A stretch of DNA of 48,836 nt from positions 1 through 48,836 of the forward strand of contig JALCBR010000027.1 of assembly GCA_028066245.1 (NCBI GenBank), in the 5' to 3' direction. A program made the translations under genes and the position numbers. Under the pieces are notes generated by a model. The model worked only from the letters and a program-made list of their open reading frames with translations. It was not told the DNA's origin and searched no databases. How positions within the stretch are numbered: the stretch's first letter is position 1; every line of letters begins with the position of its first letter. The DNA comes from Pirellulales bacterium (GTDB taxonomy: Bacteria > Planctomycetota > Planctomycetia > Pirellulales > S012-138). Shown here in pieces: positions 9,514 through 12,178 of this stretch.

Positions 9514-9864
9514 CGACCCATCTTTGCCGGCTCCGGCGCCCAGTGTTCAACTCACTCGCGCTGTAAGCTCTCGAAACCAATCCGCACAAACTTATTCATA
9601 GCAACAGTTTGTGCCGTCGCCAAGCATCTTGCGCTTGATCGAACTCGGTCTCGCCCCTTAGGTGGTCGAATCTGCACTCATCCTCACTAATTATTCTATT
9701 TTCTCTTAACTGCGAAAACTGCCAAAGTTTCCGTGCTTTTCCCGTCGCAGTGATTACGATTTCGGGAAACCACTGAGAAACCCAAGCCAAGAGCGGTTAA
9801 GGCCGTTTGTTTTTCGGGGCACGTGTCCGTTTTGGACAGACATTTCCCACTGGAGGATTCAGCT
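9514..9864. other. Intergenic region before His/Cys-rich gene
   Basis: The region is AT-richer than the flanking genes around 9680-9720. It holds no believable coding frame. The end carries the ribosome binding site of the next gene. No strong terminator hairpin follows the TPR lipoprotein, only a short GCCGG-CT-CCGGC palindrome near 9530. Confidence 0.35.
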
Positions 9865-10275
9865 ATGTTTCGAATTCTGCTAGGCGTTTTTGTGTTTTGT
9901 GCCGTCATTGGGTTGGGCCTCTTGGTCGACTCAGGTCAGGCCGTCGCTGGTCATGGACATGGCGGCTGTGGCTGCCATGGGTATCACGCGCACCATGGCT
10001 GTCATGGTTGCCACGGATATCACGGGTGCCACGGATATCATCGATGCCGCAGGTGTCGCCCTTGTTGTGATCCATGCTGCGGACCTTATGGTCATGATCA
10101 TGGCGCGCCCACTCCTGCCGGCGGTGATGTTGCGCCCCCAGCACCAACGGACGGATCTCCTTCGGACGTGCCGCCGAGCGTTGATGGAGGAACAGTTTCG
10201 CCAATCCCAAGCGGAATGGTGCGAGGACATCAACGTTTTCCGCGACGCTTCCGCTTCGTCAGCTTCCGCCGCTAG
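9865..10275 (+). CDS. Small exported His/Cys/Gly-rich protein
   Basis: The 136-residue product has a signal peptide (MFRILLGVFVFCAVIGLGLL, predicted cut after AVA at 28). A segment of about 50 residues follows with 13 His and 11 Cys, built on repeats of GCHGYH and ending in paired cysteines (RPCCDPCCGPY). Then comes a Pro/Ser-rich spacer and a basic tail (RFPRRFRFVSFRR). The His and Cys density suggests binding of metal such as zinc or copper outside the cytoplasm, or disulphide-linked surface structure; both are inferences. GGAGG lies just before the ATG at 9865, so this start is preferred to the upstream ATG at 9823. A hairpin follows the stop. No known family is recognised. Confidence 0.8.
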   Translation: MFRILLGVFVFCAVIGLGLLVDSGQAVAGHGHGGCGCHGYHAHHGCHGCHGYHGCHGYHRCRRCRPCCDPCCGPYGHDHGAPTPAGGDVAPPAPTDGSPSDVPPSVDGGTVSPIPSGMVRGHQRFPRRFRFVSFRR

Positions 10276-10614: not shown

Positions 10615-10955
10615 CGGACGGTCATTGGGGAAATCTGTCTACTGAAAAACAGTCCCTCCGTTTTTCGGAGTGTGACAACGCGTTTGCGAATTGACGAGTA
10701 GCAGTTTCCCCTCAACAGTTGGACTTTCACCTTGGGTGCCTGGTGGGACTGAGTCCTGCTGTCAACTTCGCGTGTTCCGTTGCAGGCATGACAACGTTTG
10801 TGGGATAATCTCCTGTGACACTCCCTTGTTCCTGGGGGCCAGTAACCATGTCCACAAGACGACTGTCGAAGGCTTCGCTGGGAGAACGCTTTGGTCGATG
10901 TGGTTGATTGTCCTCGTTGGTCCAGCCCGTGTATGGGTTTGATGGGGTGCCCTCT

Positions 10956-11837
10956 ATGAATGCCAAGCCGCCCTCCACCGTCAAAGCGCCTGAGGCATCA
11001 GACTCTGACACTGCGGACATGGCCGATGACGTTCGTCCCACAAACCGGGCTTCATCCAAGCCGCCACACCGCTATAGCCGGTTGATGATGCTTTCGCTGG
11101 TGCTTGCCGGCATGCTGCTTGTCACCGTAGTGGCGTACTTCGCGTTTGGGTTTGAACTCATAACCGGCGAGTTAGGCGCACTGGCTGCACTGGGCACAGT
11201 GAGTCTCATTCTCGTTGCCCAATTCATCCGCTTTCGCGAGCGAATCTCATTACGAACGCTTTTGATCATCATCACCCTGCTGGCGATTGGACTGGCCTTC
11301 TTTGGCCGCTATGCGGCGGAAGCCCGTGACGAATCGAACGCTGTCGAGGTGTTGGTGGCCGACGGCGCGGTAGCTGCCTACGGCAAGCGTGGCCACCAAA
11401 GCAAGAAGTACATCAGAACTGAGAACGGCTGGTACCTGCCAGGCTGGGTAGAAGATTGGTTCGGCACTGCGTTCTTCTCACCACTGCGAGAATTGAAGCT
11501 TAATAAGCCAGATCTTGGGGACGCGCACTTAGCTTTGTTGAGCGAGATCCGCCAGTTGGAGTCACTCGAGGTCCTCAGTTCCGGGATCACCGCCGAAGGT
11601 CTCGCTGCGATGCCAATTGTGCCTGGCATCAAAGATCTTTCTCTCGACACACCTAAGGTCTCCGAAAAAAGTTTGGAACGAATTGGCCAACTGCGCGACC
11701 TGAAGTCCCTGCGGATTACTCGCCCCAGGAGGCAAGGAGCGGGGGGGGGGTTGCCCCGCCTCCCTCTGCACCCGAATCACCTCCCTCTGCCCCCGAATCA
11801 ATTGAGCTCATTTGGTTTTCTCATTTGGAACAGCTAG
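10956..11837 (+). CDS. Membrane protein with leucine-rich repeats, 5' fragment before frameshift
   Basis: As read, the product is 293 residues. It has an N-terminal cytoplasmic part (about 1-50), membrane segments at roughly 51-72, 78-98 and 108-128, the last preceded by RISLRTLLIIIT, a membrane motif that recurs in planctomycete proteins. Extracytoplasmic leucine-rich repeats follow (LRELKLNKPDLGDAHLALL, LESLEVLSSGITAEGLAAM, IKDLSLDTPKVSEKSLERI, LKSLRIT). The frame then passes a run of ten G at 11741-11750 and turns into a Pro/Leu-rich tail ending at 11837. The same repeat pattern resumes in another frame, so this is the 5' part of a broken or slippage-dependent gene of about 407 codons. ATG 10956 is preferred; the frame is open from 10908. 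Confidence 0.75.
   Translation: MNAKPPSTVKAPEASDSDTADMADDVRPTNRASSKPPHRYSRLMMLSLVLAGMLLVTVVAYFAFGFELITGELGALAALGTVSLILVAQFIRFRERISLRTLLIIITLLAIGLAFFGRYAAEARDESNAVEVLVADGAVAAYGKRGHQSKKYIRTENGWYLPGWVEDWFGTAFFSPLRELKLNKPDLGDAHLALLSEIRQLESLEVLSSGITAEGLAAMPIVPGIKDLSLDTPKVSEKSLERIGQLRDLKSLRITRPRRQGAGGGLPRLPLHPNHLPLPPNQLSSFGFLIWNS
11741..11750 (+). repeat. G10 homopolymer at the frameshift
   Basis: Ten consecutive G separate the two frames of the leucine-rich-repeat gene. One extra G, or two fewer, would join them. Directly downstream, a 21-bp tandem duplication (11759-11779 and 11780-11800, one mismatch) encodes PPSAPES twice only in the downstream frame, which shows that frame is the coding one from about 11759. 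Confidence 0.85.
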
Positions 11838-12178
11838 AGGAGCTCAGTGTGTCGATGGCTGCGCTGGATGAGGAGGGGGCTAAAACACTGGCGCGGCTTC
11901 CTACCTTGAGGCACCTTACCCTCGATTCGAATACCAAATGGGCGGATATCAGTGGCATTTCCGGCTTGGGGAAATCGAACACAATCCGCAGCTTAGCAAT
12001 CTCCTTTTTCAAGTTCGGTGATGCCGAACTACAGACGCTTGAGTCGATCGGTTCACTCAACCAGGTGCATCTGAACCACACAAGCGTTACCGCCGATGGC
12101 GTGCGAGCTTTTCGCGCCGCGCGTCCCAATGTGCATGTCCACGTCCACCCACCAATTCCCGGGTTGGATACTCAATAG
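11741..12178 (+). pseudogene. 3' part of the frameshifted leucine-rich-repeat protein
   Basis: This frame reads a duplicated PPSAPES heptad and then runs without a stop into leucine-rich repeats (LEQLEELSVSMAALDEEGA, LPTLRHLTLDSNTKWADI, IRSLAISFFKFGDAELQTL, LNQVHLNHTSVTADGVRAF), ending PPIPGLDTQ. The repeats continue the pattern and register of the upstream fragment, so both belong to one protein. A stand-alone frame begins at ATG 11825, but nothing suggests independent translation: no ribosome binding site, and the protein would start inside a repeat. Causes could be a sequencing error in the G run, a true mutation, or a switchable homopolymer. Confidence 0.75.

Follow-up and report, generated by a model that had tools for sequence, protein, structure and literature searches.

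The window, that is the whole 48.8-kb stretch of DNA that was analysed, contains a gene for a leucine-rich repeat (LRR) membrane protein whose reading frame changes internally (Table 1). The change occurs in the -1 direction at a tract of ten G, the only G/C run of at least 8 in the window. The upstream frame passes from its ATG through this tract to a stop codon, and an in-frame TTG at 10908 is a possible alternative start. The other frame, which carries the later LRRs, stays open between 11657 and 12178, and the 142 open codons of the downstream frame have a chance probability of about 0.6%.

Table 1. Features of the LRR gene and its G tract (positions in the window).
Feature	Position	Strand	Basis or location
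LRR membrane-protein gene, frame change inside	10956-12178	+	window
Upstream frame: N-terminal tail, three hydrophobic segments, first ~3-4 LRRs	10956..11740	+	open frame, paralogue alignment, positive codon score
Low-complexity linker, unmatched in paralogue: AGGAGG, G tract, C-rich stretch, duplication	11715..11800	+	sequence, paralogue alignment
AGGAGG	11727-11732	+	inside linker
G10 tract, frame-change site	11741-11750	+	codon-frame switch there
Downstream frame: remaining ~4 LRRs and C-terminus; stop 12176-12178	11750..12178	+	paralogue alignment, weak Pfam
Tail of the assembled 5' product, out of frame; stop 11835-11837	11751..11837	+	open frame
21-bp tandem duplication, 2 copies, 95% matching	11759..11800	+	repeat search

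Read by eye, the protein begins with a polar N-terminus followed by three hydrophobic segments (approximately residues 43-65, 70-90 and 103-118). Three to four LRRs precede the tract and about four follow it. The positive-inside rule would place these repeats outside the cytoplasm, and the LRR domain is likely surface-exposed. Pfam profiles match the downstream half (LRR_14 at 1.7e-6 and LRR_8 at 2.3e-5, both under the curated cut-off), the LRR value for the upstream half being only 0.15. In architecture and sequence the protein resembles the planctomycetal membrane-anchored LRR proteins (a descriptive name, not a curated family), which combine N-terminal hydrophobic segments, a SLRTLL-like motif and a short LRR solenoid, and it shows homology along its whole length to an uninterrupted member. 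Unlike these proteins, however, it carries a linker with the G10 tract and the 21-bp duplication that splits both the solenoid and the frame.

An intact single-frame paralogue of 386 aa is found in the same genome (G000:C14, L022:1588-2748, minus strand). The upstream frame aligns with its residues 7-251 (score 268, best shuffle 54; 33% identity over 232 residues) up to LKSLRI, and the alignment resumes at PES in the downstream frame, which matches residues 259-384 (score 110, best shuffle 47). A codon model whose training set was other genes from the same genome finds coding signal in the upstream frame as far as the tract and in the downstream frame beyond it, with stops on neither side. Under stricter settings a codon HMM failed to recognise the downstream half as coding; the codon signal there is therefore weak and it is homology that bears the argument. 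Together, the paralogue matches on both frames and the codon switch indicate that the two frames form one LRR membrane gene, which changes frame at the tract or very close to it. The initial annotation, which described a single LRR gene switching frame at ten G, with the shift confined to the region before 11759, is thus borne out by alignment and codon usage alike. Its description of a 21-bp duplication directly after the tract, encoding PPSAPES twice in the downstream frame, also proved correct.

The linker that holds the tract is absent from the paralogue: it spans about 25 residues in the broken gene where the paralogue has about eight. A stable hairpin is predicted at 11801-11848 (TTGAGCTC...GAGCTCAG), approximately 50 nt past the G tract and within the coding region.

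The homologue search covered 397 genomes belonging to the order. The best matches to the upstream half, the paralogue aside, are single open frames with 26-29% identity, and homologues of the LRR protein are present in G057, G049, G063, G034 and G035. No close relative of the upstream half was found in the contig collection searched, and no other genome of the same genus was found in the genome collection. The neighbouring gene atuA is present in all four same-family genomes examined.

G tracts were then considered at the level of the genome, a draft assembly of 4.94 Mb in 186 contigs, in which homopolymers were counted by pattern search. It contains 25 distinct G/C runs of at least 8. The counts fall from 115 (G7) to 18 (G8) and 2 (G9), then 2, 2 and 1 at the following lengths, so that only five tracts in 4.9 Mb reach 10 or more. 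Extrapolating the decay from G7 to G8 gives 0.52 expected runs of at least 10 (P=2e-4 for the five observed), a surplus that would fit expansion of long runs by slippage. Yet a model based on dinucleotides alone puts the expectation at 5.7 such runs in the genome, although it overpredicts runs of at least 8 fourfold. The excess is therefore a weak argument and need not mean expansion.

Tracts were scored where coding sequence was found on both sides, which for G7 yielded 14 tracts from the 30 sampled. The frame is broken at none of these 14, at one of nine G8 tracts and at both coding tracts of at least 10. The difference in frame breaks between tracts of at least 10 and those of at most 8 gives p=0.01 (Fisher) on small numbers, just two coding tracts of at least 10 being scorable. 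Frame breaks thus belong to long G tracts and not to general noise. One further G8, on contig C72, was rejected as a frame break, since two successive pilin-like genes meet at the tract. The G11 of contig C146 and the G10 of contig C32 do not lie within clear genes, and a G12 on C32, close to the contig end, was left out of the scoring. This last tract (L060:4607-4618, G000:C32) lies where a long secretin-like open frame ends, and the contig end is 49 bases away; differing tract lengths may have caused the assembly to break there.

Tracts of at least 10 G are also present in 34 of 40 relatives of the order, mostly outside genes in the six genomes sampled. In one relative assembled as a single contig, a G11 (L108, G010:C1:2549871) separates two coding frames on one strand, as judged by codon score.

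Three genes are broken in the genome, every one at a G tract. Besides the LRR gene, a G11 tract (L061:2789-2799, G000:C135:7288-7298) splits a Gly-rich planctomycetal protein within a Gly-rich stretch, and both halves find their match in a single unbroken protein of L131, L132 and L133. The third is a kinase/ATPase-type gene that changes frame at a G8 tract (L067:2498-2505, G000:C49:3097-3104) on a 3.6-kb contig, and its halves match consecutive parts of a single open frame in G008. The upstream half of this gene is without about 34 residues found in the G008 homologue. For one of these two additional genes, the matching records come from Planctomycetaceae and Planctomycetota MAGs, which assigns the source of the genome to this phylum. 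One of the two shifts by -1, the other by +1. The two genes are unrelated, belonging to no single functional class and forming no surface repertoire. That two unrelated genes are broken in the same way makes chance slippage, in the cell or during sequencing, likelier than a purpose-built switch.

Since frame breaks rise with G-tract length across the genome, we infer, with moderate confidence, that a change in the length of the G10 tract altered the frame of a single LRR membrane-protein gene, and that the slip occurred in the DNA of the organism and has no adaptive role. The G tract would have arisen between two LRRs, in a linker of low complexity. Past about nine units, such tracts slip readily in replication and, without strong selection, tract length drifts, approximately two of every three lengths being out of frame. 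As assembled, the truncated product would comprise the membrane part, the first half of the solenoid and a short junk tail. The locus resembles indel pseudogenes and sequencing frame errors, both categories of PMC3711429, in its single frame change within an otherwise ordinary gene, a change unconserved in homologues. It differs from them in that the breaks in this genome are confined to long G tracts and are thus of a slippage type rather than random.

The same length dependence is expected equally from slippage in vitro or from a miscall of the assembly, and the G tract could simply have been given the wrong length, the gene being intact in the organism. Such an error, which we regard as rather unlikely, would suit a draft in 186 contigs whose three broken genes all lie at G tracts, particularly as the C49 gene occupies a small contig and the C32 G12 nearly abuts a contig end, places where assemblers struggle. 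It fits poorly, however, with the remainder of the window: the codon HMM identified no further frame break in the 48.8 kb despite seven G/C runs of at least 6 and four A/T runs of at least 7, the direct frame changes that it reports elsewhere being at overlapping gene ends. The assembly is therefore not error-ridden in general. Short runs are likewise clean (22 of 23 coding G7 and G8 tracts keep the frame), so any error would be limited to long G runs. A different mechanism, programmed -1 ribosomal frameshifting or transcriptional slippage at the G run, would yield a short and a full-length protein from the gene as assembled. The change does run in the -1 direction, G GGG GGG permits full re-pairing, and a Shine-Dalgarno-like AGGAGG ends 8 nt ahead of the run, an arrangement close to that of dnaX. 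Yet the window contains AGGAGG 18 times, the same frequency as in shuffles, the region folds at the RNA level no better than shuffled sequence (z -1.07), and the one clear hairpin is some 50 nt downstream of the run. The paralogue and the homologues are each encoded in one open frame, and of the two further broken genes one shifts by -1 and the other by +1, which makes recoding very improbable.

Poly-G contingency loci occur in Campylobacter and Neisseria. The LRR gene is similar to them in having a coding G tract of at least 8, a frame break at that tract and a product that is probably surface-exposed. It differs in the few tracts of the genome, the lack of a surface-gene repertoire and the existence of a paralogue without the linker. 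Adaptive phase variation, in which reversible slippage at G10 would toggle the second half of the extracytoplasmic LRR domain, nevertheless deserves consideration: this half would be a sensible target for switching, both flanks of the tract have kept their open frames and homology, which makes any loss of frame recent, and a G11 breaks another gene, that on C135. The tract is also within the range (8 or more) of the poly-G genes experimentally shown to be phase-variable in Campylobacter (PMC6321876). In PMC3711429 a frame transition counts as phase variation only if characteristic repeats coincide with a function previously linked to such switching; the LRR locus has the repeats alone. With just five tracts of at least 10 in 4.9 Mb, such tracts widespread among the relatives, two other broken genes unlike classic surface contingency genes and a paralogue devoid of the tract-bearing linker, we consider adaptive switching improbable. 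Our literature search found no published case of phase variation in Planctomycetes. A small phase-variable set (the LRR protein, the Gly-rich protein and perhaps the C32 G12 gene) would be the first in the phylum according to the searches made here, and seems quite doubtful.

Slippage-driven loss of frame is therefore the most likely account, followed by a sequencing miscall and then by adaptive switching. Of the proposals made in the initial annotation, slippage at the G run agrees with the way in which breaks track tract length, but a phase-variation function is unsupported, the other broken genes being of mixed class. The suggestion that tract length turns the extracytoplasmic repeats on or off is not supported either, because about half of the repeats precede the tract: with three to four LRRs upstream, the frame change halves the solenoid and does not abolish the repeats.

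The locus represents a known mechanism in an ordinary gene, and the mechanism is already known whether the slip is real or a miscall. If real in the organism, the slip would show that the gene disruption by long G tracts known from host-associated pathogens also happens in free-living planctomycetes. A miscall would mean that draft planctomycete genomes can contain genes falsely split at G tracts of at least 10.

Elsewhere in the window, a short ORF at 9823-10275 carries a His/Cys/Gly-rich repeat (HGHGGCGCHGYHAHHGCHGCHGYHGCHGYH) and 18-bp tandem repeats. Its product, for which no Pfam match was obtained, may possibly bind metal.
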